DNA of 64,000 nt from Haloplanus sp. CK5-1 (lineage in GTDB: Archaea > Halobacteriota > Halobacteria > Halobacteriales > Haloferacaceae), in assembly GCF_037201915.1 (NCBI RefSeq), contig NZ_CP147505.1, forward strand, positions 2,356,001 to 2,420,000. Reading direction: 5' to 3'. Positions 8,617-35,475 of the stretch are shown here, in pieces. Within the stretch, counting starts at the first letter, position 1, and every line of letters begins with the position of its first letter. The notes under the pieces are model-generated. The model ran no database searches and was not told where the DNA came from. It saw only the letters and a program-made list of their open reading frames with translations. The position numbers were made by a program, and so were the translations under genes.

Positions 8617-9237
8617 TCAGAGTGATCGGTCTACATTATGAATGGGACAGGCGATGGTGAGTTCACGGAACTGCTTCCACCATCGTCGTGAGCGAACGAA
8701 CGCGCCGTGCTTCCGCTTGAGCGTTGAGTTGACTGTCTCAGATTGACTCCGTTGCCCGTAGAGATCAGTGTCTGGGCGTGCGTTCCATGTCCGGTGGAGT
8801 GACGTGAACTCACGATGCTTAATCAGTGGCCGAACCTCGTGTTGACGTGCAAGTCGTCTGATCTTCTGGTCGTCGTAGCCCTTGTCACCGAGTAGAATGT
8901 CAATATCCTCGGGGTTGCGCTTGATCGACAACGGAGCAATCTGGCTATCGTGTTTTCGTGTCGTCGTCACGTGTAAATCGAGGATTGCGTTCACCTTCGC
9001 ATCGACCAATAGCGTCATTTTGAGTTGCTGAATCGTGAGTTCAGCGCGTTTCGTATAGTGTTTCGAAGCGTGACTACGGTCGAATCCTGACGCATCAACA
9101 CCAACAACTCCGCTTGTCGGAAGTAGCACCGCTGAGAGAGTCAATATAACACGCCACACAGCCATATCAAGCCGGTCGAACGCCTTACTATTATAAGTCC
9201 AGCTGGTTGCTTGCGGTCGCCAGTTCGCGCTGTCCAC
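8617..9237 (-). pseudogene. N-terminally truncated IS5-type (ISH1-like) transposase
   Basis: The 206-aa frame keeps the catalytic core of an ISH1-like enzyme: Asp in GVDASGFDRSH, Asp in LLGDKGYDDQ and Glu in RSQSETVNSTLKRK. Relative to the complete enzyme at 4382-5224 (280 aa) it lacks about 75-95 N-terminal residues, and its first about 12 residues look like readthrough from unrelated sequence. No matching inverted repeat is seen on the left. About 35 bases to the right, 9287-9299 contains gctatgacaccct, like the terminal repeat of the IS at 37119-38189. It is probably an internally deleted, inactive copy. Confidence 0.75.
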
Positions 9238-9468
9238 CGAATTCTCTGTGAGTAGCGATTCTCAGGAGCGGTATACGTATGCCAACTGTGCTATGACACC
9301 CTACTGTAAGCTAACATTCGAAAGAACTCGTCTACCGAGCGTTCTCGACAGAAGCAGCCAAACTCTATTGATATACCAAATCGAATGACAGCAAGAGAGT
9401 TTCAAATAAGCCCAAAGAGCAAAAATTTGAGCCGGTATATTATTGTGATCACCGAATTGAATTCCTGT

Positions 9469-9573
9469 ATGGTTGGGTCTGCAACTCTTATTATTGTAAT
9501 TACGATCACCGTTGCGATGGTGCTGACCCTAGCTATGCTGCTACGGTTGTTTAAAGACGCTGAGGGCTTGTGA
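9469..9573 (+). CDS. possible 34-aa single-helix membrane peptide
   Basis: ATG 9469 opens a 34-residue frame that is almost entirely one transmembrane helix (ATLIIVITITVAMVLTLAML) followed by a charged tail. A longer frame from 9385 (62 aa) is possible. Such peptides are common in haloarchaea but hard to prove. Confidence 0.35.
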   Translation: MVGSATLIIVITITVAMVLTLAMLLRLFKDAEGL

Positions 9574-9989
9574 CCGGCAGTTCAATTGTATTGGCCGCTC
9601 CAGCCTAATCGAATTTGCAGCTAATTTCGTGCGAGATACACGTTCTGTATGCGGTATGCCCACCGGAATTCTGCTGAACTTCTTGAACGTCATTCACCCC
9701 GCCGACAGAGATGCCGTCACGGACAAGAGAGCACGCACATTCCCCAAACAGAACGGTTGGGTGAAATTTGTTAAATAGATGACGAAGTACGGAGTCACTA
9801 TAATCAATGTTTTACTCTACAGCAGTATTTTGCTGCCCTCTGTTCAAGGATTTGATGTAGTGATCTGCCAGTATCGACCTCCCCGTGTCGGGTGTCGTCT
9901 ACGGACCAGTGTGACGACGCCGATCAGTCGTATCAGAGTACGGAACTAACTAGATCTTCCGCTAGCTAATCGGCTACCAAAATAAGACC
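9574..9989. other. gene-free interval
   Basis: About 415 bases with no convincing gene. A motif gtgcgagatacacgttctgtat at 9629-9650 resembles gtgcaagatacgcgcgctgtat at 2126-2147, so another trace of the dispersed repeat may be present. The last part is AT-rich and probably holds the promoter of the operon starting at 9990. Confidence 0.4.
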
Positions 9990-11378
9990 ATGACAGCGCA
10001 GACCAACATCTCGCGTCGACAAGTCGCCAAGGCGGCTGGCCTTGCAAGTATTAACGCGCTCGCTGGTTGTACAATCAACGATAATGGCGGTCCGGAGAAC
10101 GTAACACCCACATCGATGCCCTCGGACAAAACACGGACCAGCGCTGACAGGACGGATTCTCTCATTAATGCGATCGAGCACGTAGCAGTCACGTTCGAAC
10201 TGAGTGGATCATCAGACCAACTCGATACTGTCGCTACGCAACTTGCGCAGTCATCGATCATCGGTATCGGCGAGAATTCGCATGGTATTGCTGCGTTCAA
10301 GCAAATTCCCTCGTTCCTGGTCCAACGCCTCGTTAGGGACCACGGGTACCGGTTAGTGGCGCTTGAGGGGACGCTCGGCGACTTTTCCTCCGTCAATCAG
10401 TATATCCACGGTGATTCGGATGATCTTGACGCGGCGATATCTTCGCTCGAATTCTACTTCTGGCGGACGGGAGCTATCAAACAGCTGTTCGAGTGGCTCC
10501 GTAAGTTCAACAGGGGCCGTCCCGACGCGGATGGGGTGGAAGTTCGAGGATACGACGCTCAGTTTCACGATATAAATGCCGGAGCGATTCAGTCGTACCT
10601 TGATCGTGTTGATCCGGAGTATTTGGCCGAAATCAACGCTTCCCTAGATCCACTCACCCATCCGCTCTACGAACGGTCGGATGCCTCCTTCATGACGGAG
10701 TCACACGTCACTCTTATCGATAATCTGCGGACGCGTTTCCAGAATCGGAAGTCGAAATACATCAACGAGAGTTCGGAATCGGAATGGCAACTCGTAAGAC
10801 GGCACATCTGGACGCTTGAGCGAGGGTTACAGTTCCTGAAAGAGTCGTCTGCCGAAAATTACACGCGCGGAAAGCGGATCCGTGATGAGGCGATGGCTGA
10901 GAACGTCTCGTGGCTGCGTGACTGGACGGATTCGGACCGCGTCGTGGTGATGGGAAACTCGAACCACACCATGCGTGGCGGCGGTGGGCAACATGCCACT
11001 CGAATGGGCGAGCACTTGACCGATGAATTCGGGACGGAGTATTACTCACTGGGTATGCTGTTTGGCAGCGGAGAATTTTCCGCGCCAGCTCACCAACGAG
11101 GTGACTTCACGACCTACGAAATCGGCTCGACTGTCGACGACACGCTCGAGTCGACGCTCGTCTCAGTTTCGCAGCCGCCGTTTTTCCTCGATTTCGAGAG
11201 GGTACGTGATCGACCCCAACTGAGTGCCTGGTTAGATAACACGGCAAAAACCCAGTTCACGGTTCCTCGTACCGCTGATCGTGGTGCTATAGGATTACCA
11301 GAGCCACCTGGAGAGCTGTTCGATGGAATCGTGTTCGTACGTGATGCGACTCCTGCAGCCATCATGTCTCAGTCATGA
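9990..11378 (+). CDS. exported erythromycin-esterase-like lipoprotein
   Basis: A 462-aa protein. The N-terminus has a Tat-type signal (SRRQVAK at residues 8-14) and a lipobox LAGC with Cys27, so it is expected to be exported folded and lipid-anchored outside the cell. The body matches the erythromycin esterase/succinoglycan-biosynthesis fold: GIGENSHG (about 92-99, equivalent to GExTHG with the catalytic His), LVALEGTLGD, RGYDAQ, RDEAMAENVSWL and GNSNH. EreA-type members hydrolyse macrolide lactones; many archaeal members have unknown substrates. It is the first gene of a five-gene operon whose members overlap by 4 nt. The substrate here is not known; macrolide resistance is only an inference from the family. 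Confidence 0.85.
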   Translation: MTAQTNISRRQVAKAAGLASINALAGCTINDNGGPENVTPTSMPSDKTRTSADRTDSLINAIEHVAVTFELSGSSDQLDTVATQLAQSSIIGIGENSHGIAAFKQIPSFLVQRLVRDHGYRLVALEGTLGDFSSVNQYIHGDSDDLDAAISSLEFYFWRTGAIKQLFEWLRKFNRGRPDADGVEVRGYDAQFHDINAGAIQSYLDRVDPEYLAEINASLDPLTHPLYERSDASFMTESHVTLIDNLRTRFQNRKSKYINESSESEWQLVRRHIWTLERGLQFLKESSAENYTRGKRIRDEAMAENVSWLRDWTDSDRVVVMGNSNHTMRGGGGQHATRMGEHLTDEFGTEYYSLGMLFGSGEFSAPAHQRGDFTTYEIGSTVDDTLESTLVSVSQPPFFLDFERVRDRPQLSAWLDNTAKTQFTVPRTADRGAIGLPEPPGELFDGIVFVRDATPAAIMSQS

Positions 11379-23552: not shown

Positions 23553-24944
23553 TTAGGACGGCGTGAGTAGGTCGTCGATGTCCGCTACAGTAAACAAGGA
23601 CCACGAGTCATCGAGTTGTGCTTCGAGTCCGTCGACGAACCCGTTTTTCGAGAACAGGGCGAACTGCTCGTCTCGATCCGACGGTCCCCATCGGACGTTC
23701 TCTGCCTTTGCTCGCAGACTCTCGACGAGGTCTTCCCCGACCGGATCCGTCGTCCACTTACATTCGGCGAGGAGGACTCGGTCGTCGTTCGGTGCCAGCC
23801 CGACGATGTCGATTTCCTCTTCTCCGTACCACCACCGACCGACTTCGGAGTACGGTTCGAATTCGCCGCGTCGAATCCCTTCCCAGACGGCTTCTTGGCA
23901 GACATCCTCGAACGTGGTTGCGACGTGCGTTGGGAGGTCCGGTTCAATCGTCCCGTCGTACACGATCTCCGGTGCTTCCTCGATACTGGATCGATGCGGC
24001 TCGACGTACCGAAACCAGAACCGAAGGAACTCGTCCGCAACCCGGTACCGTGACCGCTTCGATTTCTTCCCCGAGGCCGTGACTGGGACATCTCGTTCGA
24101 TGAGGCGGAGTCGGCGAAGTGTCTGTAGGTACTTCGAGAGCGGTCCCGAATCGATCCCCGTTGCGCCGGAGATCTCGTTCGGTGTCGTATGGCCCAGTGC
24201 GACTGCTTCGAGGATACTCATGTACCGGGCTGGGTTTCGGAGCTCGGTGCGCAGGAGAAACTCGGGTTCGTTATACAGTACCGCAGATGGTGATAGGACG
24301 TGTGATCGAATGTTCGCCGCGAGCGACTGGTCGTAGTCGAACAGCGTGAGGTACATCGGGGTACCACCCGTGACGGCATACGAGCGAACCGCGTCCCTGA
24401 AGTCGTACGAGATGACCTCTCGGGCCTGTTGAAACGAGAACGGCGTTACGTCGAGTTGTGCCGTTCGTCGCCCGTATAGTGGGCTCTCGTGTCCCAGGAT
24501 CTCTGACTCCATCGTGCTCACGCTCGACCCACAGAGCACCAGCATCGAGTCCGTTCCGTCGAGCGCCTGGTCAACGAACGCTTGTATGTACGATGGGAGC
24601 GAGTCGTTCTCTTCGACGAGATACGGGAACTCGTCGATGACGACGACGAGATCCTCTCGCTGGAGGTTCTCCCCGAGGTATTCGAACGCTTCGTCCCAAC
24701 TGTCGATTCGAGGGACGCGCTCGTCGAAGTAGTCCGCAACTTGGTCGAGAAACTTCTCGCGCTGTCGATGCTCGGCTTCCTGCGCGGCAAGGAAGTAAAT
24801 GTGGGGACGGTCAGCACAGAATTCTTTGAGGAGTTCCGTTTTCCCCACCCGACGCCGGCCATAGACGACAACGAAGTCCGAACCGGGTGACTCCACCGCA
24901 GCGGTGAGTGTATCGAGTTCTTCCTCCCGGTCGTAGAAGGTCAT
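23553..24944 (-). CDS. archaeal DUF234 ATPase with restriction-fold C-terminus
   Basis: A 463-aa P-loop ATPase. Walker A is GRRRVGKT (29-36) and Walker B is VVVIDEFPYL (Asp104, Glu105). An SSVSTME sensor region and a winged helix (about 240-290: AVALGHTTPNEISGATGIDS) follow. The C-terminal DUF234 part has EEEIDIVG ... LLAECKW (about 372-395), a PD-(D/E)XK-like core. This family is widespread in archaea and mobile regions and its role is unsettled. It lies 160 bp downstream of the AddA-like operon on the same strand, so it may be read with it or be a separate island member. Confidence 0.85.
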   Translation of the reverse strand: MTFYDREEELDTLTAAVESPGSDFVVVYGRRRVGKTELLKEFCADRPHIYFLAAQEAEHRQREKFLDQVADYFDERVPRIDSWDEAFEYLGENLQREDLVVVIDEFPYLVEENDSLPSYIQAFVDQALDGTDSMLVLCGSSVSTMESEILGHESPLYGRRTAQLDVTPFSFQQAREVISYDFRDAVRSYAVTGGTPMYLTLFDYDQSLAANIRSHVLSPSAVLYNEPEFLLRTELRNPARYMSILEAVALGHTTPNEISGATGIDSGPLSKYLQTLRRLRLIERDVPVTASGKKSKRSRYRVADEFLRFWFRYVEPHRSSIEEAPEIVYDGTIEPDLPTHVATTFEDVCQEAVWEGIRRGEFEPYSEVGRWWYGEEEIDIVGLAPNDDRVLLAECKWTTDPVGEDLVESLRAKAENVRWGPSDRDEQFALFSKNGFVDGLEAQLDDSWSLFTVADIDDLLTPS

Positions 24945-25104: not shown

Positions 25105-28100
25105 TCACTCCTCGGACCCGGGACCGACGGTAAACGAGGCCGGCGCGCAGGGAAGTTGGTTGTGCTGACACCACCGGCAGTGCTCACCCGAAGTGTACCG
25201 ACTGAACGAGAACTCAGCAATATCGTTCATCGACGACGTCACGTCATCTCTGACTGCTTCCAGATCACTTTCGCTGAACGTTCGGGATTCGACTTTCGGC
25301 CCAATGTCACCGACGTAGGCATATCCCGCGCGTGCGACAGGCTCATCGTACAGGTCACGGCACGCTAACAGGTAGATCGGGAGTTGCTTATCGTTCTCCA
25401 AGTCGCGGTGACGTTCGGTCGCCTTGTAGTCGATGACGACCAGTTCGTCGTCAGGTGTCCGGTAGACCGCGTCAATGTAGCCGACGAGTTCGTGCCCATC
25501 GATAGTGAGTTCGAACTCTCGCTCCGCGTCGATGATCTCATAACTGGGGAGATCTAACTCGAAGTACCGATTGATACACTGTTTTGCCGCCGAGAGAGCG
25601 TCGTCAGCGCGGCGCTGACTGGCGAGTCGCTCGCAAATCTCGTACCACTCCTCACGACGTTCCACCCCTTGATTCGCGGCTTGCTCAGCGGTATCGTGGA
25701 ACAGCAATCCGATCTCACGTTGCGATACACCTCCCTTCGCATCGCTCGTGGCCTCGGTCTCCTGATAGTCGGGGAACGCGTTGACCACGTAGTCCAGATG
25801 GTGACTCCGTGGGCATTCTTCGTAGGCCGCCAGCGACGTGTAGCTGTGAGAGAGCGACGGCGACGGTGTCGACGGGCCAGTCAGCGACCCAACCTGGAGG
25901 ATTTCCCGCTCGGCTCTCGGTGAGAGACTCCCATCGAGAGTGGCCGTTGTCAGGTTCAGCACACGGTCGCGTGCAACCCCAACCGCGAGCTCTTCCCCAT
26001 CGTGCCTGACGGTACCGCCGATACTTCCGATGGTCTCGTTGGCCAGCGTGTTCGTCCAGTCTACTGCGTCGTCCGGGAGACACTCTTGGACGTCGGTCCA
26101 AAGCGGGAGCTGTCCTCGCTCCGGCTGCCATGGGATTCGAGATGGGAGTATTTCGTCAACCAGCTCTGAAACAGTGTTCTCGTCCGCAGCATCGTCACCT
26201 TCGTCGCTGCCACCCTGCAGGACGAGGATGTCCTCGGCTCGCGTGATCCCGACGTGGAACACGCGGCGGGTCTCACGAGCATCACGCTCGACGAAGTCCT
26301 GCGCGAACGCTGCTTCTGGGCCATCCGAGAGGCTGGTTTCGAGCGCGTCGTACGTGCGTGAACTTGGTGCCCACTCGTCGGCGGTAACTTGTGGGATGAG
26401 GACGACCGGGAAGTCCAGGCCCTTGCTTTTGTGGATGGTCATCACGTTGACCGCGTCGTCGGCGACGTCCGGCTGACTCGTGGGTGTGGTGCCACTTTCG
26501 TCGAACAGGGAGTCGTAGTGTTCGAGCGAGTCGATAAACTCCGGAGTCAGCGGAGGTTGGACGGCACTATCCCCGTACCCCTCGATGACGTCCTCCAGTT
26601 GGATGAGATCCCGGCGCTCCTGCTCGCTGAGATACCACTCGATGTTCGTGCGGTCCGTGAGTTCGCGGTACAGATGGCTGAGCGACGCCGAATCACGAAT
26701 ATCGAGCAGTTCCGTGGCGTGCTCACGGGCTTCTGCGATGCGGTCGGGCTCCTCGAACTCGTCGAGCGGCGTCTCGCGCAGTGTGTCCACGAGCGGGTCG
26801 TCGCCCGCGTTGAGCGTGCGGAGGTCCGCGTCGCAGAGCCGGTACCGCATTAGGAGGATGCGATTCCAACTCACCTCGTCTTCGGGCCGTGCGAGTGCCT
26901 TCAGGTAGGCGGTGACGGTGCCGACGCCGACCGATTCCGTGGCCAGATCCCCAGCAACTTGGTACGGGATGCCGGCGTCTTCGAATTCCTCGATGACGGG
27001 AGTGGCGTGGTCGTTCTTCCGGACGAGTAACGCGATGTCGCCTGGATCGTACGCCTCATCGAGGGTTTCTGCTGCACCGCTCAGTAGGTTCTGGACGACG
27101 GTCCGAAGTTGGGGTGGCCCGTCCGAGTCGTCGTCTTCGTCCGGTAGTTCGACGGTAGCGACGGTGTCGCCGTCGTACGCGGGTTCGTCGACGCGAGTGA
27201 GTGTCTTGTGCCGTTCACGGTGGTCGAGTTTCCGAATCGCCTCGTTTGCCAGGTTGAGAATCGGCTGTCGGGAGCGGAAGTTCTCCTCCAGCGGTTCGTC
27301 CGTGAGCGCCGCGAACGCGCGGTCGAGTTCGTCGGTGATGTTTCCGACGTTCGCGCCGCGCCACTCGTAGATCGCCTGATCGTCGTCGCCGACGACGAAC
27401 AGGTTGTCGTCGGTGACGAGTGACGTGACGAGGTCGAACTGGAGACGATCCGTGTCCTGGAACTCGTCGCAGAACACGTAGTCCCACCGCTCGGCGATTT
27501 CCTCGCCGACCGACGAGTCCATCAGCGCAGCCGTCTCGACCACCAGGCCGTCGAAGTCGATGAGATTTCGCTCGTCCAGTTCTCGCTCGTACGCCGCGTA
27601 CCCGGCGGTGAGATCTCGGGCAGTAAGGCAGTCGGAAACGAACGAGTCGAGATGGTCCGTGAGTTCAAGAGCCAGATCGTCCGGGATCCCTTTCGGAGCA
27701 CCGCTTGCGTATCCGCCGAACAGGTACTTCGGGAGTTTGTACGCGTTGTCCGGCAGATCACGCTCGCCAGCTTCGTGGGCCTGGAACGCGGTCTCAAGCG
27801 CATCACACAGGTCGACGAGCCGGTCGAGGAGATCCCGAACACTGGCCTCGATCCCGTCCGTTCCCAACCCGTCGCGTTCCGCGGTGAGTTCATCGCGCAC
27901 CTCGGGAAGTGAATCCAGCACGCTTGCCACGGACCGGCCACCGAGATGGTCGCTGGCGATTGCTTCGACGCGCTCCGGCAGGTCGGCGAGGTCATAGACG
28001 CGGTCGGCGGGCCCGAGGAACGCGTCGACGTCCTCGGGCGTGATGCCGCTGCGCTTCATCGACCCGATGAAGTTGAGCAAGTTCGACGCGGCTCCGGACA

Positions 28101-28566
28101 CGTACCCGTCGCTGCCGTACACGTTCGGTTTGACCGACCGGTACTCGATGTCGTCGAGAACGTCCAGTACGATAGCGTACTTCTCGGCGTCCGTGGCGAC
28201 CTCGAAGTCCGGGTCGATCCCGGCTTCGTAGGCGTAGTCGGCGAGGATCTCGTTACAGATCGAGTGGTACGTGTACGCGTCGATGTCGTACCCTGCTGTC
28301 CCGAGTTTCGCGTTGAGTTTCTCCCGCATCGAGTCCGCCGCGTTGTTCGTGAACGTCAACGCGAGAATCCGGTCCGGCGAGACGTCTTCCTCGTCGATGA
28401 GGTGCTCGATCTTCCGCACCATCGTGAACGTCTTCCCTGTCCCTGCACCGGCGAGCACGCGCATCGGGTACGCGTCGGAGTTGATGATCTCCCGTTGCTG
28501 GGGCTCCGGGGACACGTCTTCCTCCGGAACGGGGAACCACGACGGGTACTCCGTCTCGTCGCTCAT
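25105..28566 (-). CDS. AddA-like UvrD-family helicase with RecB nuclease and Fe-S cysteines
   Basis: A 1153-aa SF1 helicase. Walker A is GAGTGKT (40-46), motif Ia LTFTNNAADSM, Walker B VFCDEFQDTD (364-373), motif III VVGDDDQAIYEWRGA, motif V VMTIHKSKGLDFPVV and motif VI FHVGITRAED. The last about 240 residues form a PD-(D/E)XK nuclease (GYIDAVYR ... LVVIDYKAT) framed by cysteines: one in YEECPRSH and three at the end (CRWCQHNQLPC), the AddB-type iron-sulfur pattern. The start overlaps the upstream nuclease gene by ATGA. It should unwind and resect DNA ends with the other operon products. Size and order resemble bacterial AddA plus a Fe-S nuclease. Confidence 0.9.
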   Translation of the reverse strand: MSDETEYPSWFPVPEEDVSPEPQQREIINSDAYPMRVLAGAGTGKTFTMVRKIEHLIDEEDVSPDRILALTFTNNAADSMREKLNAKLGTAGYDIDAYTYHSICNEILADYAYEAGIDPDFEVATDAEKYAIVLDVLDDIEYRSVKPNVYGSDGYVSGAASNLLNFIGSMKRSGITPEDVDAFLGPADRVYDLADLPERVEAIASDHLGGRSVASVLDSLPEVRDELTAERDGLGTDGIEASVRDLLDRLVDLCDALETAFQAHEAGERDLPDNAYKLPKYLFGGYASGAPKGIPDDLALELTDHLDSFVSDCLTARDLTAGYAAYERELDERNLIDFDGLVVETAALMDSSVGEEIAERWDYVFCDEFQDTDRLQFDLVTSLVTDDNLFVVGDDDQAIYEWRGANVGNITDELDRAFAALTDEPLEENFRSRQPILNLANEAIRKLDHRERHKTLTRVDEPAYDGDTVATVELPDEDDDSDGPPQLRTVVQNLLSGAAETLDEAYDPGDIALLVRKNDHATPVIEEFEDAGIPYQVAGDLATESVGVGTVTAYLKALARPEDEVSWNRILLMRYRLCDADLRTLNAGDDPLVDTLRETPLDEFEEPDRIAEAREHATELLDIRDSASLSHLYRELTDRTNIEWYLSEQERRDLIQLEDVIEGYGDSAVQPPLTPEFIDSLEHYDSLFDESGTTPTSQPDVADDAVNVMTIHKSKGLDFPVVLIPQVTADEWAPSSRTYDALETSLSDGPEAAFAQDFVERDARETRRVFHVGITRAEDILVLQGGSDEGDDAADENTVSELVDEILPSRIPWQPERGQLPLWTDVQECLPDDAVDWTNTLANETIGSIGGTVRHDGEELAVGVARDRVLNLTTATLDGSLSPRAEREILQVGSLTGPSTPSPSLSHSYTSLAAYEECPRSHHLDYVVNAFPDYQETEATSDAKGGVSQREIGLLFHDTAEQAANQGVERREEWYEICERLASQRRADDALSAAKQCINRYFELDLPSYEIIDAEREFELTIDGHELVGYIDAVYRTPDDELVVIDYKATERHRDLENDKQLPIYLLACRDLYDEPVARAGYAYVGDIGPKVESRTFSESDLEAVRDDVTSSMNDIAEFSFSRYTSGEHCRWCQHNQLPCAPASFTVGPGSEE

Positions 28567-29468
28567 CGTCGCACCTCCGTCGACAGGCGATCAGCACACA
28601 TCTCTCGATAGTCACAATCCGGGCACGCCTCGTCGGTGATGAGGTCGAACGGCTCCGGCTCGTAGGCCTCACCCGTGATGCCGTCGTGCGCGGCACGGAT
28701 GAGCTCCCAGATCGTGTCGTAGTGCTCCGCGTAGATCTCCGTGGTTTCTCGTGGATATCCACGGGCAGACACCTCGTACCCGGCTGGAGTGCTCTCGAAC
28801 GACGTGCTGTTGAGCAGGCCGTAGAAACTGAACCGAACCGTCATCCCGTCCTCGTAGAACGGTTCGTTCTTCACGCCCTCGATGTACGTCGCCGTCTGGA
28901 ACGCGTTCCGCACACGCTTTGGCTCGTGTGCCTCTCCGTCGCGGTGCTCGCCGAGATACTCGGCCGTCCCGGACGAGAGGACTCCGCTCGTGTTCCGCTT
29001 GTAATCGAATACGTGTAGCCCCTCGTCCGTCCGAACGACGTTGTCAGCTTTCCCGTGGAGGCCGCGGCCATCGCGTTCGCATTCCACCCAGCACTCCGTG
29101 GCGACCGAGTGACGCGCGTGCTCGATCCCGTCACCACCATCCGGGTCGAAGAACGCCTCGACGGCAGCCCGGTTCTCACGCCGCTGGTACTCCTGATGGG
29201 CGTCGGATTCGTAGTCGTCCGAGTTGCTGTGTTCCGCCCACTTCGCCGCAAAAACGTCCATCGCGCGGTCGTGAATCGTCTCTGCATCATCATCACGTTC
29301 AGTCACATCACACACGTCCTCGATAGTCTCGTGGTAGATCGTCCCTTGGTTGAGATACAGCTCCGTACGATCCGGTGTGTTCACATCCTGTACATACCGG
29401 TAATCGTACAACCGCGGACACGTCGCGTAGTTCGCCAACCGCGACGGGGAGAGCGATTCGGAGCTCAT
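28563..29468 (-). CDS. PD-(D/E)XK (RecB/Cas4-fold) nuclease with Fe-S cysteines
   Basis: A 301-aa nuclease. The N-terminal LSPSRLANYATCPRLYDYRY holds the first cluster cysteine. The catalytic core is GLHGKADNVVR ... GLHVFDYKRN (Asp and DxK), then QTATY. The C-terminal CPDCDYREMC gives the other three cysteines. This is the RecB/Cas4 arrangement, equivalent to the AddB C-terminal nuclease but as a separate protein. No cas genes or CRISPR array are nearby, so a CRISPR Cas4 role is unlikely. It overlaps both neighbours by 4 nt. Confidence 0.88.
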   Translation of the reverse strand: MSSESLSPSRLANYATCPRLYDYRYVQDVNTPDRTELYLNQGTIYHETIEDVCDVTERDDDAETIHDRAMDVFAAKWAEHSNSDDYESDAHQEYQRRENRAAVEAFFDPDGGDGIEHARHSVATECWVECERDGRGLHGKADNVVRTDEGLHVFDYKRNTSGVLSSGTAEYLGEHRDGEAHEPKRVRNAFQTATYIEGVKNEPFYEDGMTVRFSFYGLLNSTSFESTPAGYEVSARGYPRETTEIYAEHYDTIWELIRAAHDGITGEAYEPEPFDLITDEACPDCDYREMCADRLSTEVRR

Positions 29469-31522
29469 CGCCGCACCTCCCCGGTAGCGAACTCGACACG
29501 TGCACGCAATGCCTTCCGGAGTTCCTCCCCACGCGCCCCGCTCTTATCGAGCACGTCCTGAATCTCTCCGAGTTCCGCCTCGACCTCATCGAGCGACACC
29601 GTCACGTCCTGACTGTTCGCGCGCCGCACCTCCGAAAGCGCGTCGTCGACCCGCGACAGCAGGTACTGCTCCGCCGCTTGCTCGCTCGTGACCTGTGGCT
29701 CATCGGCCTCGGTCACCCACGGAAGATCAGCATACGCCGCCGTGAGGAACCGCGATGCCTGTGCACGCTCTTCGAGCGCCGTGTCTTCGTACTCGTAGAG
29801 ACAACAGTAGAGCCGCTCCGCCGCCGCACCCGCCCCGACAGCCAATCGTCGCCGCGCGTGCTCCGCGTGGTACCGCGCGAACGGTCGTCCTGACGCCGTC
29901 GACGTCGTCGGGAACGTCGCATCCATATCCGCTCCATCCAGTTCCGTAACACCGGGATAGTCCGGCATCGACGCGACTCGCTCGCTCGGGAACAACCGTG
30001 TCAGGAACGGGTCGCCCGGGTACTCGCTGTCGACGAGATTCACGAGGAACACCGCGCGGAACGACTCGTTCTTAATCGCTTGCAAGTGATCGACGCGAAC
30101 GCCGCCGTCGAGGTCCGTCGCACTCGTCTGATTCTGCTGCGGTGCGTACTCGTGAGCGCGTTCGAGCATCTGCTTGAACGACTCCCACGTCGCATCCACG
30201 AACTCGGTCTCTTCGAGGAACTCGGCCATCCGGAACGCCCGTCGGACGTTCCCAAACTGCGCCCGTGCATCCAACGGGGCCGCCCGTTCCGCGATCCGCT
30301 CTTTCAACCCAGCGTCCGTGGCCCACCAGTGAATCGCGTCTTCGAGGCTGTCCGTCTCGCTGACTCGGTCCAAGCGGTCCGTATCGAGTTCCGAACCGTG
30401 GTCGGGTCCATCGTCTTCATCGTCAGCGAGATACCGAACGGCCGCGAGGAGTTCCCGAATCGCAGGATCGTCACCGAACCCGGTGACGGTTGTCGATTCC
30501 GTCGGAATCCCGGTGCCTTCGAACGCTTCGATAGCGTCCGTCACAGCACTCCCGCTTTGCTTCGTGGCGACAGCGATATCATCGTACTTCCAGTCCGGCC
30601 GTGCGACGAGGTCTTCGATCTCGTTCGCAATCTCGGCGAGTTGTTCGTCACCGGAGTCTGTGGCAAGAACGGAAACCGACCCGGATTCTGGATCTTCCGG
30701 GACCGTTTCGTCGGCGAAATACGCTGCCGTCGCGGCTGGTCGCGTCGACGGCGTCCCCGATGCCCCACGTCGGGATTCGCTGAACGAGACGTAGTCCGTA
30801 ACGGGTCCGGTCTCGACCCACGTCCGGCGTACACTCGCGTTCTCCTCGGCAACACAGACGAGATCGCAGTCTCCCGCGAGCGCGTCGAGATACGCGCGAT
30901 CAAGCGGGAAGAACTCCTCAAACTCGACTGCAAGTACCGCGTCGAAATCAACGACCTCGTCGCGGGCATCCCCCGTGAGGACATCGAGCGCTTCCGAGAT
31001 GAGTTGTCCACGCTCCATGTGCCCGTGCTCGGCGAGCCAGTCGTGGAACCCGTCGAGCGCAGCCGTGATGTCACGGAGTTCCGGAGTCTCGTCAGGCCTG
31101 ACCGTCTGCCAGGAGATCGTGCCCATCACCGCATCCACGTCCTCGATGAACGACGGCTGCGCAGACGCCCGTTGGAGGTACTCCGTTTCCCACTCGTAGT
31201 CTTCGAGGAACCGGTACAGGAGTTCCCGCCGCAGGGCGTCGGAGAGAATGACGCGGTCATCGGTCTGGTTGAGGACATCGGTCGCGTGCACCACCGACGA
31301 CGTCACGTACGGCGTCGCCGCACCCGGCAGTTCCTCACCTAACGCTTCACGGAACGCGTCTGCGCTCGTCGGTGCACCCGTGATGACGAGCACATCCTCA
31401 GAATCGTGCTCGTCGAGAAGCATTCGGTATTCGTTTCGTGCTGTCCGTTCGACGTTTTCGCCCCCGAACGGTACCGTGACTAACGTCCCGTCGAACCGCC
31501 GGTGAGATGAGTGATCAGACAT
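29465..31522 (-). CDS. AddB-like inactivated helicase
   Basis: A 685-aa protein. The N-terminus LVTVPFGGENVERTARNEYR occupies the AddB Walker A position but lacks GKT. The middle contains VDFDAVLAVEFEEFFPLDRAYLDALAG, as in the UvrD-like second domain. About residue 510, VRVDHLQAIKNESFRAVFLV then NLVDSEYPGDPF matches the UvrD-C helicase core of AddB/RecC. No nuclease motif is present, because that function sits on the next gene. It is probably the structural partner of the AddA-like helicase. ATGA overlap with the nuclease; a 5-nt gap to the PLD-ATPase upstream. Confidence 0.78.
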   Translation of the reverse strand: MSDHSSHRRFDGTLVTVPFGGENVERTARNEYRMLLDEHDSEDVLVITGAPTSADAFREALGEELPGAATPYVTSSVVHATDVLNQTDDRVILSDALRRELLYRFLEDYEWETEYLQRASAQPSFIEDVDAVMGTISWQTVRPDETPELRDITAALDGFHDWLAEHGHMERGQLISEALDVLTGDARDEVVDFDAVLAVEFEEFFPLDRAYLDALAGDCDLVCVAEENASVRRTWVETGPVTDYVSFSESRRGASGTPSTRPAATAAYFADETVPEDPESGSVSVLATDSGDEQLAEIANEIEDLVARPDWKYDDIAVATKQSGSAVTDAIEAFEGTGIPTESTTVTGFGDDPAIRELLAAVRYLADDEDDGPDHGSELDTDRLDRVSETDSLEDAIHWWATDAGLKERIAERAAPLDARAQFGNVRRAFRMAEFLEETEFVDATWESFKQMLERAHEYAPQQNQTSATDLDGGVRVDHLQAIKNESFRAVFLVNLVDSEYPGDPFLTRLFPSERVASMPDYPGVTELDGADMDATFPTTSTASGRPFARYHAEHARRRLAVGAGAAAERLYCCLYEYEDTALEERAQASRFLTAAYADLPWVTEADEPQVTSEQAAEQYLLSRVDDALSEVRRANSQDVTVSLDEVEAELGEIQDVLDKSGARGEELRKALRARVEFATGEVRR

Positions 31523-31527
31523 GTCTA

Positions 31528-33648
31528 TTACCCGCGGACGAGCCGCGTGACCCGAGACAGCACACCGGTGTCGTCAGCGGCTGTCTCGGTATCGCGTCGT
31601 GCATCTTCAATCACACTGGGCTCATCAATCCAATTCTGGAACCTGTTCGCGCTTTCAAACTGAACCGCCGGCCCGTAAATACCCGCCCGGATATGGGCTG
31701 GCGTGGTCTTCTGGAACTCCCAGCATTGCTGCTGGTCCAGATGTGCCGAGAAATCGGCGACGATCCGTCCGTCATCCTTGAAATCGAGTTCGCACAGTCC
31801 GTCGGACAGCGCACTGATCCACTTCCGACGCCCCGGATCGTGCTTCTGCTCGGCGGGTTTCTCCAGTGGCACGTACTCTGGTGGTTCCTTTTCGGCATAC
31901 GCGTACAGCTCTGCGAACACGTCCCGAGCATCCGCGAGCCGATCCGACTGGTCCGGAAGCGAGATATCCCGCTGTAAGAACAGGTGGGCGAACCACGGGA
32001 ACAGGTTACAACTGTCTGCCTGCCCCGCGATCTGCGCGGCTGCTTCGCGTTCGTCCTTCTTCAGTTCGGAGAAGTTGACGTTGAAATCCAGCGTCTTCAT
32101 CCGAGTGCGGAGTTCGGATTTCGGCTTCGTGGAGTCGTTCGAGGAGAAAATGAACGTCGGCATCTGGATAGACCCGTCCCACTTCCCCTCCCAGTAGGAC
32201 TTGATGATGTCCCGGTCGATTTTCGACTTCGCCACGTCGTCAACGATGTACGGGAAAACGGTGTCCGACGCACGATCCCGCTCGATGTTGTCTTTGACGA
32301 AGTCGTCTCCGGTCGTAACTTCCTGTACGTACCCGTTCGAGATGAGACGCGTCCCGAACCGCAGGAACATGCCTTTTCCGCTGTCATTGTCACCGTGGAG
32401 GAACAGGAACGGTAGATCCTTGTCCAGCTCTGCAGACTCGTATTCGGCGTAGCGATAAGCGCAGTAGTCAGCAAACGGAGCCCAGCAGAGGTAGATAATT
32501 CCTTCGTGGAAATGTACCCGCGTCTCCTTTGGTGTTCGCGTTTCACCGAACTCGCCGACAGTTTCGATGTACTGCTCGATCAGGTCGAGTGTGTCAGCGA
32601 CTTCCTGCGGATCGTCCGGCAGCGGTGCTGTTAGTTCAAGGACGGAGTCGTCAACCCGCAATTCGACATTGTTCTCGTCTCTATCGACGTTGAGGTCTGG
32701 ATACCCTGTGAAGGTCTCTTTGTACCGCGCGATGCCGGCGAGTGTCGCTACGATTTCGCCGTCGTTGATTCGGATGTTATTGGCAGACAGCGTGTCGTCC
32801 AGATTCGAGATTGCGTCTTCGAGGCCCTGCGGGGAGAGGCGGGCACGCTTGTCCGGACTGATTTCGGTTGGATCGGTGTCTGTATCTTCAGCGGCGAAAA
32901 CCGCTTTCTCTGCTTCTTCGGCGTCGGTGACGACGTTGTACGTATTGACTTGGTCGTCGTCAACTGCTTCGTCGAGCCGGGCGTTCAGCTCGGCGACCGG
33001 GTCGTCACTGAACTCGTCGCCACCCAGCCAGATATCGTAGATCTTCGCCTCCTGTTCTGCCGTTTCGGCGTCCTCGATCTCCTCGGTGAGATCCTCCATG
33101 AACGGCATCGCGTAGTCCTTGTGGAACGCGTATAGCCGTTCGAACCACTCGTCGACGGGCGTGTCTCCATCGGTACGCCAGGCGATGTTGACGTTGGTTT
33201 GCTTGCTCCCCTGCCAAGCCTGCTTGGAGAGGTTCGCCGACCCACAGATGAGTGTGCGAGACCAGTCTTGGTTCTCGACGATGTAGAGTTTCGTGTGAAG
33301 CAGGACGCGTGCGGAATCGACGGTGTGGATGAGTAGATCACCGTCTTGGCGCAGTGATTCCAGTTGCGCGGCGATTTTCTTTGCGTTGTTCGTGTTCTTC
33401 AGCGAGCGCCGGTAGTCGTCGTGCTGGTTGTCCCCGACGATGACCTCCAGCGAGTCCACTGCGAGATCCTGATTCTGAAACATCTTGTAGATGAATGCCG
33501 GGGACTGACTGTACGTGACGCAGTAGACGTGCTGGGCGTCACCGAAGTAGTTCAGGAAACTATCCCATGATTTGTCGGCAGCCATCTCCAGATCGGCGGT
33601 GCTGCCGTCATCGAACTCGACTGTTGCTTCGAATTCTCTCTTGGTCAT
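31528..33648 (-). CDS. PLD-like nuclease fused to SF3-like ATPase
   Basis: A 706-aa two-part protein. Residues about 30-200 are a phospholipase-D-like domain with HTKLYIVE (His118, Lys120) and LICGSANLSKQAW, the HxK and GSxN halves of one PLD motif; the Asp is absent. Residues about 340-560 form a helicase-type AAA+ domain: Walker A-like FLHGDNDSGKGMFLRF (about 419-426), PYIVDDV (Walker B), and TFIFSSNDSTKPKSELRTRM as sensor 1 and arginine finger. A charged linker (about 200-300) separates the halves. PLD enzymes with an ATPase occur in several defence systems. It lies 63 nt downstream of the Argonaute remnant. Confidence 0.82.
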   Translation of the reverse strand: MTKREFEATVEFDDGSTADLEMAADKSWDSFLNYFGDAQHVYCVTYSQSPAFIYKMFQNQDLAVDSLEVIVGDNQHDDYRRSLKNTNNAKKIAAQLESLRQDGDLLIHTVDSARVLLHTKLYIVENQDWSRTLICGSANLSKQAWQGSKQTNVNIAWRTDGDTPVDEWFERLYAFHKDYAMPFMEDLTEEIEDAETAEQEAKIYDIWLGGDEFSDDPVAELNARLDEAVDDDQVNTYNVVTDAEEAEKAVFAAEDTDTDPTEISPDKRARLSPQGLEDAISNLDDTLSANNIRINDGEIVATLAGIARYKETFTGYPDLNVDRDENNVELRVDDSVLELTAPLPDDPQEVADTLDLIEQYIETVGEFGETRTPKETRVHFHEGIIYLCWAPFADYCAYRYAEYESAELDKDLPFLFLHGDNDSGKGMFLRFGTRLISNGYVQEVTTGDDFVKDNIERDRASDTVFPYIVDDVAKSKIDRDIIKSYWEGKWDGSIQMPTFIFSSNDSTKPKSELRTRMKTLDFNVNFSELKKDEREAAAQIAGQADSCNLFPWFAHLFLQRDISLPDQSDRLADARDVFAELYAYAEKEPPEYVPLEKPAEQKHDPGRRKWISALSDGLCELDFKDDGRIVADFSAHLDQQQCWEFQKTTPAHIRAGIYGPAVQFESANRFQNWIDEPSVIEDARRDTETAADDTGVLSRVTRLVRG

Positions 33649-33711: not shown

Positions 33712-34505
33712 TCAGATGTACGGGACGCCGCGGATGACGCTGCCTTTGGTGAGGTAGCCCTTCATCGCGAAGTCGGCGCACTTGTCGGCGTAGTACGTGG
33801 TGATGGGGAGCCGAGTGGAGCGGCTCAGCGATCCGACGTGCGCTTCCGATAGCCAGTAGGTTTGCTCCGCGAGCGTGTCGAGATCTGTTGATCCGTGCCG
33901 TTTCACGATCTGTAGCGGTCGCAGCGTGCCAAGGCTTTCCTCCTTCCCCTAGTCGTGGTCAGGTAGGAGTGGTCGCCGTTGTGGACGTGGAAGGCGACAC
34001 CTTTGTCCGCGATATCGAACCGTGATTTCGATTCGTCGTATTCGGCGATGCGGGGATTCCCGGATTCCGGATCTCAACGAGGTCGAACCGCTGAATGAGA
34101 TCCCGGGCTTTGTCGAGACGGTTGATGAGACTCTCGACGTCGAGGTAGAATTTCCCGTCACGATGAATCACGACGTGCTGCGGTGGCCGGCCTTCCTCTT
34201 CGGCGAACATTTCCAGAACGTGCTTGATGACGTTCGCTACGTCGTCCTCGTCGAACGTCTCGCCAGCCTGCTTCGTGACAGCCTCGGACGCGAGGATGGT
34301 TCCGTCAGCCATAATGACGTTCGCGGCTGCGCCGAGGTGTAGATCCGTATCGTGCTCAACGGTCACATCGGCGATGTCCTGTCCGCGTTGCACCCACTCG
34401 GCGGCGGACCGTCTCCAGTTGCTCAGATGGTTGTCGTTCTATGGGTCGGTCACGTACGCGGGGAGATCCCGGAGAAAGTCATATCACGAATCTGTCCGTG
34501 GTGTC
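33712..34505 (-). pseudogene. prokaryotic Argonaute PIWI-domain remnant (frameshifted, N-terminally truncated)
   Basis: Three minus-strand frames together spell a PIWI domain. Upstream, WVQRGQDIADVTVEHDTD and GAAANVIMADGTILASE hold the probable first Asp, and AGETFDEDD may hold the Glu finger. PPQHVVIHRDGKFYLD gives the third Asp, then VEIRNPGIP. After a shift near 34052 comes RIAEYDESKSRFDIADKGVA and FHVHNGDHSYLTTT. After a second shift near 33950 comes GKEESLGTLRPLQIVKRHGS and TRLPITTYYADKCADFAMKG (fourth Asp), ending VIRGVPYI. Stops TAG (34439-34441) and TGA (34484-34486) lie further upstream. The N, PAZ and MID domains are missing. It is the head of the PLD-ATPase/AddAB-like operon. Identification is by motif recall, not by search. 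Confidence 0.75.
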
Positions 34506-34509
34506 GGAT

Positions 34510-35217
34510 ATGCGCACTGGACTGGGGGAATTCTTCAGAGGCCTTCTCTCCGACAGTACCTACACGCATTCCGACTGGGACGAACGACACTTGCTGAACC
34601 GTGACTGGCGGCAGTTCGAGGAACTGATCGCGGTGCTGTGGGAGGATATGGGCTACGACACACGACTACAGCAAGGAAGGAAGGACGGGGGTGTCGACGT
34701 CATCGCCGAAGCGACCAACCGGATCCCGTTTTCCGATCCCCCGAAGATAGCGATCCAGGCGAAACGATGGACACAGAAGGTCGAAGAGCCCCTGGTTCGG
34801 GATCTGTTCGGTGTCCAGTGTGGGGGGCACCGTCACTCGAGTACGGACGTGTTCGACGAATCGGTCTTGGTGACCAGTTCGGGACGCACTGACGATAGGT
34901 CCGGATTCACTCAGGGTGCACGGCAGTTCGCGGAGGAGAACGGCGTGGAACTGATCGACGGGGAAACGCTGCTAGAGCTACTGAACGAGTCGAACCTCAG
35001 TCCGTTGCGACTCGGGCGGAAGCCGGGGAACAAGTGGCACCTTCGGGAATCGCCACGCTGTGGGTGGTCACACAAGTTTGACGAGAACCGATCGTATGCT
35101 CACACGGCCGAAAAGGTGTTCAACACGGAGGAGCGTCTGATCGAAGCCACCGACACGTACGTCTCGGTCACGACCGACGAGGTCTGTGAGGCCTGTCTGA
35201 ACCTGCGTCGCGAGTAA
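34510..35217 (+). CDS. Mrr-type restriction endonuclease
   Basis: From ATG 34510 the product has 235 aa. The Mrr_cat PD-(D/E)XK core is complete: WRQFEELIAVLWEDMGYDT (Glu), KDGGVDVIA (Asp63) and KIAIQAKRW (Gln83, Lys85), then VRDLFG. The C-terminal part has scattered cysteines (PRCGWSH and VCEACL) that may bind zinc. Upstream frames extend to 34441 but run into the Argonaute remnant, so the ATG near 34510 is favoured. It is transcribed divergently from the Argonaute/AddAB-like operon, whose 5' end it may have truncated. Confidence 0.85.
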   Translation: MRTGLGEFFRGLLSDSTYTHSDWDERHLLNRDWRQFEELIAVLWEDMGYDTRLQQGRKDGGVDVIAEATNRIPFSDPPKIAIQAKRWTQKVEEPLVRDLFGVQCGGHRHSSTDVFDESVLVTSSGRTDDRSGFTQGARQFAEENGVELIDGETLLELLNESNLSPLRLGRKPGNKWHLRESPRCGWSHKFDENRSYAHTAEKVFNTEERLIEATDTYVSVTTDEVCEACLNLRRE

Positions 35218-35475
35218 TCCCGACGGCCTCGCAAACCCCAGTCGTCCAGAGAGGCGTGTGCGCCGACGGTAGTGAGACGAGTCCCGGCTGCCGGCGTCAC
35301 CGACGCGAACCACGCCGTCCCCAGTCCGACGAGACCACCGACTCGTCGGAGGAGGTGGACCGCACCGAACGGGACGAGGCGGCCGACCGCCGGGCCGTCC
35401 GGGTACCGCATGTGCCGTCGGTTGGTCGGGATCGATACCGTGGGGCCACGGGAGAGGGTCCGTGGTCGTGGTGGT
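35218..35475. other. interval at the edge of the accessory region
   Basis: About 255 bases between mrr and trkA. The minus strand around 35240-35410 has a hydrophobic stretch (VGRLVPFGAVHLLRRVGGLV) starting at an ATG, but no sensible stop, so it may be a residue of a membrane-protein gene. GC content rises sharply here. Confidence 0.3.

Follow-up and report, generated by a model that had tools for sequence, protein, structure and literature searches.

A decayed long-A Argonaute gene beside an open agaP gene in a defense cassette of Haloplanus sp. CK5-1

RESULTS AND DISCUSSION

An Argonaute remnant and its gene neighborhood

The window analyzed here is a 64,000-nt stretch of the Haloplanus sp. 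CK5-1 chromosome (contig NZ_CP147505.1, positions 2,356,001 to 2,420,000 of the forward strand). It contains a remnant of a prokaryotic Argonaute (pAgo) gene, ago, followed in the same direction by four protein-coding genes (Table 1). The frame-0 piece of the remnant, which is open for 144 to 159 codons, matches the PADLOC pAgo profile PDLC02388 (E = 3e-44; the match starts at piece residue 23, past the motif IADVT) and Pfam Piwi (3e-5). The similarity is therefore not due to chance, and the minus-strand PIWI domain that the first-pass annotation had read from the sequence alone, ending at VIRGVPYI, is borne out. The host genome is a single 3.24-Mb contig (99.78% complete), in which a Piwi search found no second copy; the remnant was the sole match.

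Table 1. Features of the ago remnant and its neighborhood (window coordinates)
Feature	Position	Strand	Length	Remarks
ago PIWI remnant	33712-34408	-		PIWI-type coding similarity spread over three frames, ending at VIRGVPYI (33712)
Ago fragment A	34340..34408	-	~23 codons	Mid-protein (L021 codons ~343-364); holds the decoy IADVT
Ago fragment B	33712..34339	-		PIWI, from HLGAAANV to the natural stop (L014 codons 684-892)
963-bp in-frame deletion junction	34339..34342	-		Joins Ago codons ~343-364 to ~684-892
First frameshift, one-base loss	34064..34067 (~34066)	-		GGAAATCC to GGAATCC
Second frameshift, one-base loss and adjacent substitutions	33946..33950 (~33948)	-		ACCGGTGGG to ACTAGGGG
Decayed small-gene 5' remnant	34409..34474	-		Unrelated haloarchaeal gene, fused to the Ago remnant
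Mrr-type restriction endonuclease gene	34441..35217	+		Divergent; Pfam Mrr_cat 2.4e-23
AgaP, PLD-nuclease partner with C-terminal P-loop ATPase	31528..33648	-	706 aa	Open
AddB-like protein	29465..31522	-	685 aa	Name inferred from position and a weak UvrD_C match
PD-(D/E)XK nuclease, Cas4-like	28563..29468	-	301 aa	
UvrD-family helicase fused to PD-(D/E)XK nuclease (AddA/RecB-like)	25105..28566	-	1153 aa	

The family is the published haloarchaeal pAgo-PLD (APAP) system, in which a long-A pAgo is accompanied by an adjacent PLD protein, AgaP (Cheng et al. 2024, PMC11442185), and the pseudogene itself is of a known kind. As in APAP, the host is a haloarchaeon, agaP lies directly after ago (66 bp apart in the intact relatives), AgaP has an N-terminal PLD domain, and the PIWI domain is of the long-A type, with a full catalytic tetrad in the relatives of the window ago. 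Unlike in the description of APAP, in which a helicase gene was noted near some operons (PMC11442185), three AddAB-like genes follow in the window operon. These genes resemble AddAB/RecBCD in that a UvrD helicase with a C-terminal PD-(D/E)XK nuclease is joined by a second large partner. They differ in forming a haloarchaeal three-gene set, the AddB-like member of which is unmatched in Pfam above the cut-off (i.e., its UvrD_C match is subthreshold), in NCBIfam, and in sequence searches of solved structures in the PDB, where AgaP also found no match.

Several haloarchaeal families contain full-length Ago homologues (~880 to 900 aa; 80 to 97% identical to the L014 protein). Intact homologues were found at eleven further named haloarchaeal genome loci, the hosts including Halorussus marinus, Halorubrum sp. 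48-1-W, Halogeometricum limi, Haloferax profundi, Natribaculum breve, Halosimplex, Halostella pelagica, and Natronomonas gomsonensis. The intact cassette reads AAA/DUF4143 (divergent), ago, agaP, addB-like, PD-(D/E)XK, and uvrD-like; wherever checked, neither the partners nor their order differed. Since the cassettes are ~90% similar across distant families, their sequences suggest recent transfer between lineages. In the window, the Mrr-type gene occupies the site expected for the 5' part of the cassette (i.e., the start of ago and the AAA/DUF4143 gene); it was not found at that place in the intact-Ago cassettes examined. Farther to the right, the gene after trkA (35217-35420), which is longer in G004 (L084:6595-7176), loses similarity at ~35304, seems to be cut off soon after, and probably marks the right-hand border of an inserted island. 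At the other end, an ATPase_2/DUF234 gene downstream of the uvrD-like gene (23553-24944) also flanks the AddAB-like set in G009 (86% nucleotide identity) and is possibly part of the cassette.

Two large junctions and two one-base losses in ago

Only Ago codons ~343 to 364 and 684 to 892 survive, and the N, PAZ, MID, and PIWI domains do not stand in one uninterrupted frame. Fragment A is 97% identical at the nucleotide level to nt 1027-1094 of the L021 Ago, and fragment B is 91 to 93% identical to close intact homologues (93% for the nearest relative). The N-terminal half had been described as missing; that loss is real but larger, since of all the sequence preceding PIWI only ~23 codons remain. 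Going upstream, Ago gives way at ~34409 to the 5' part of a small unrelated gene (82% nucleotide identity over ~100 bp to L083:3824-3922), the intact form of which is a 124-aa ORF in that same-genus genome. When both partners are aligned, the joint falls at ~34409-34400, by way of CGCCGCC microhomology, and the first ~340 Ago codons are removed. Two stops noted earlier are present in frame 0 (34439-34441 and 34484-34486), but they are not lesions of the Ago frame, since the sequence beyond ~34409 belongs to the small gene.

At the second junction, alignment to three relatives gave a gap of 963 bp in every case, a length divisible by three. The deletion took the rest of the mid-protein, MID, and the start of PIWI, including FVGLDVT (Asp674). 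In addition, the remnant lacks two single bases relative to every intact relative, one of them in a short A run. These are the two one-base shifts already proposed, the first lying at ~34066, slightly upstream of the 34052 originally given; the second creates an in-frame TAG in the downstream frame. Conserved PIWI residues are altered as well (R54Q, G135E, P137L, and P140L, numbered from HLGA). The private changes of the PIWI remnant (4 amino-acid-changing to 2 silent) are too few for a separate test.

The first catalytic aspartate

The tetrad of the intact homologue was assigned by alignment to the solved CpAgo and CbAgo chains and comprises, in L014 numbering, D674 (FVGLDVT), E710 (AGETF), D744 (VIHRDG), and D869 (YYADK); all four are invariant in nine aligned haloarchaeal Agos. 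Among solved structures, CbAgo and CpAgo (PDB 6qzk and 9jh7) are closest in sequence to the intact homologue, and their tetrad positions align; unlike the window gene, they are bacterial and intact, and the similarity is at the 140-bit level and covers MID-PIWI only. The window retains E710 and D744 in frame 0 and D869 in frame 1, i.e., three of the four positions, in two frames. The first-pass annotation had counted all four as kept, taking the Asp of IADVT as the first, and this is refuted. IADVT aligns to L014 codons 351-355, and its Asp corresponds to D353, a column in which relatives carry D, G, or E and which is unconserved even among close ones. The true FVGLDVT lay just upstream of the PIWI-side joint of the deletion and hence inside the deleted segment; because the 963-bp deletion spans it, the remnant has lost the authentic Asp674. 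With DIADVTVEHDTDL now running directly into HLGAAANV, a chance DVT stands roughly at the place expected for GLDVT. The Asp of IADVT is a decoy, a by-product of the deletion. Judged as a long-A pAgo, the remnant thus shows PIWI homology and lacks a complete DEDX tetrad and a single frame.

Decay rather than sequencing artifact

We conclude that what is left of ago is a pseudogene, derived from a haloarchaeal long-A pAgo of the APAP kind and lying within a defense cassette (estimated probability, about 0.93). Recent inactivation, as first proposed, is supported at the sequence level by the 93% nucleotide identity to the nearest relative, the few lesions, and the open partner genes. It is extremely improbable that sequencing or assembly errors alone broke the frame and that the strain owns a working pAgo. 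The position of one of the one-base losses in a short A run would fit such errors, but two large illegitimate junctions are beyond any base-calling error, conserved residues are changed too, and the single-contig genome holds no other Piwi copy. Moreover, the operon aligns to L012, L013, and L014 over 8 to 9 kb, and outside the Ago remnant all gaps keep the frame (e.g., at the UvrD start, 4-base and 1-base gaps against L014 sum to three); the four lesions are restricted to one gene. The assembly error offered earlier as an option is therefore unsupported, since homopolymer errors could not produce the large junctions and the downstream operon is frame-intact. Real decay is by far the better reading, while each single-base loss, taken alone, is a putative lesion. 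In the course of this decay, one illegitimate joint took away the first ~340 codons and placed the rest of the gene next to an unrelated, decayed one; the in-frame 963-bp deletion eliminated the region through the first catalytic Asp and left the look-alike; and the two one-base losses break up the remaining PIWI. We infer that no Argonaute activity arises from the locus. A literature search returned no report of a haloarchaeal pseudogene Argonaute among its top matches.

AgaP is open but shows an excess of amino-acid changes

The window AgaP contains no stop or frameshift and keeps HxK (H118 and K120), GSxN (G136, S137, and N139), and the P-loop; H118, K120, S137, and N139 are invariant in 12 aligned AgaP relatives. 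The protein is 94 to 96% identical to the AgaPs of close intact cassettes, of which the L014 member matches Pfam PLDc_2, and its predicted model (pLDDT, 78.7) matches PLD nucleases, including that of the NgoAVII R protein. Unlike in Natrinema pellirubrum AgaP, where HxK and GSxN are ~50 residues apart, HTK (118-120) and GSAN (136-139) are separated by ~15 residues, as in close relatives; the L017 AgaP has a long insertion between the two motifs in the alignment. Given its open frame, the window AgaP could still be functional. With respect to APAP, the adjacent same-direction gene for an AgaP-type PLD protein is thus present and a functional pAgo partner is absent.

We compared private substitutions, i.e., changes unique to one sequence, which are a rough measure because silent sites are partly saturated and cassettes may recombine. 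The window AgaP carries 17 amino-acid-changing (N) and 4 silent (S) private substitutions, against 80 N and 160 S in fourteen aligned intact-Ago cassettes (17:4 versus 85:162 in all others; Fisher P = 6e-5). The AgaP of G026, the ago gene of which is cut by a transposon, tilts the same way (5 N to 2 S; Fisher P = 0.049 against the intact-Ago cassettes), and these two have the highest N:S among the 16 AgaPs. Private-substitution counts showed no such shift in the AddB-like, PD-(D/E)XK, and UvrD-like genes. Pairwise dN/dS values for the window AgaP are low overall (0.05 to 0.11 against three relatives), as they average over a long common history; the signal lies in the private counts. A span of 22 residues (378-399) holds six of the 17 private changes; these six are all transitions and could be one event, such as a small conversion tract or a local mutation burst; without this cluster, P is 0.004. 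Since private N:S is raised in both cassettes with a damaged ago, the sequences suggest that constraint on AgaP was relaxed after ago loss, a correlation drawn from two lineages. The reverse test, on the Ago of the G353 (L022) cassette with its broken AgaP, was not significant (13 N to 4 S versus 196:147; P = 0.14).

The N. pellirubrum AgaP, a distant homologue of the window protein, is reportedly toxic without its pAgo, the active site of which is dispensable against a plasmid and needed against a single-stranded DNA virus (PMC11442185). In the window, unlike in that system, ago is dead and AgaP persists without it. Because pAgo suppression of AgaP toxicity is reported (PMC11442185), AgaP is still open, and the 963-bp deletion kept the frame, leaving a frame-0 piece of up to 159 open codons, the piece might be thought a reduced but still useful PIWI protein that, for example, restrains AgaP. 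We consider this very unlikely: MID is gone, and a MID double mutant could not be combined with AgaP (PMC11442185); PIWI is cut by frameshifts and a stop; the first catalytic Asp is absent; and relaxed change in AgaP is unexpected beside a working antidote. Truncated long pAgos without PAZ (e.g., AfAgo; Ryazansky et al. 2018, PMC6299218) share with the window a long-pAgo PIWI without N and PAZ but have an open MID-PIWI, whereas the window remnant lacks MID and has a frameshifted PIWI. Closer to that class is the G026 relative, open over codons ~430 to 892. In this closest cassette (L013, G026:C2; Ago at 8816-10201), a DDE transposase lies just upstream of codon ~430, and the 491-codon open frame is MID-PIWI sized, keeps the tetrad, and represents a short-pAgo-like natural truncation.

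Related cassettes in the class

Among the 391 genomes of the class surveyed, 14 cassettes carry a full-length AgaP: 12 with full-length Ago, one with a cut Ago (G026), and one, in the window, with a broken Ago. In G353, Ago is intact and AgaP broken; in G082, G092, G361, and G003, scraps of AgaP alone remain upstream of an intact AddB-like gene; and G009, G062, G013, and others have AddAB-like genes without a trace of adjacent Ago or AgaP. In G009, the three-gene set has a 1626-aa sacsin-like ATPase (L044:8022-12899) in the upstream place instead of pAgo-AgaP. The genome of the window itself has a second AddAB-like copy without Ago, adjoining a 2001-aa protein (L050:42-6044) that shares the ATP-binding domain of the G009 ATPase. 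Since AddAB-like sets stand by themselves or beside different genes, the helicase-nuclease module can be separated from pAgo-AgaP.

More distant AgaP relatives (46 to 47% identity; L032, L033, and L034) have Mre11-, Rad50-, and NurA-like genes as neighbors, and no Ago was detected within about 8 kb of them (by Pfam scan for L032 and by gene order and protein starts for L033 and L034). The idea that an AgaP is an orphan whenever tblastn shows no Ago nearby was rejected for G008 (L035), in the same genus, where a 762-aa divergent Piwi protein (L035:3860-6145; Pfam 3e-5, below the cut-off and easily missed) neighbors an AgaP relative and a Mre11-like gene. The very similar neighbor in G296 (L036) is presumably a divergent Piwi protein too. 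The AgaP relatives of G005, G350, and G246, one of which is of the same genus, are still without a detectable Ago.

Such relatives in three genomes, together with the kept catalytic motifs and the open frame, would fit an AgaP that was freed rather than relaxed, its excess changes being adaptation to act without pAgo and with the AddAB-like enzyme; ago would be dead either way. We regard this as unlikely, because the changes are scattered over the protein and strike conserved positions (e.g., G129W and A378V) and because AgaP scraps alone by an intact AddB-like gene in four other genomes are the expected endpoint of decay. Under relaxed constraint, AgaP may be little used after the death of ago, may have been silenced when the upstream promoter was lost, or may be decaying. 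The AddAB-like genes are presumably still working, since their substitution pattern is that of intact cassettes and they are found elsewhere by themselves or beside different partners.

CONCLUSIONS

The active site that seemed whole in this Argonaute remnant is corrected to a by-product of a deletion, and the locus is a natural ago knockout beside an open agaP, a state in which published work in another branch predicts toxicity. It is conceivable, though doubtful, that the three AddAB-like genes serve as an interchangeable chassis for several defense front ends (pAgo-AgaP, the sacsin-like ATPase, and others) and that AgaP outlives Argonaute and acts with the helicase-nuclease alone. If so, the locus would offer a natural test of what AgaP does, and whether it is toxic, when pAgo is missing. 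The apparent relaxation of AgaP in both cassettes with a damaged ago supports a functional coupling of ago and agaP and the independence of the AddAB-like genes.
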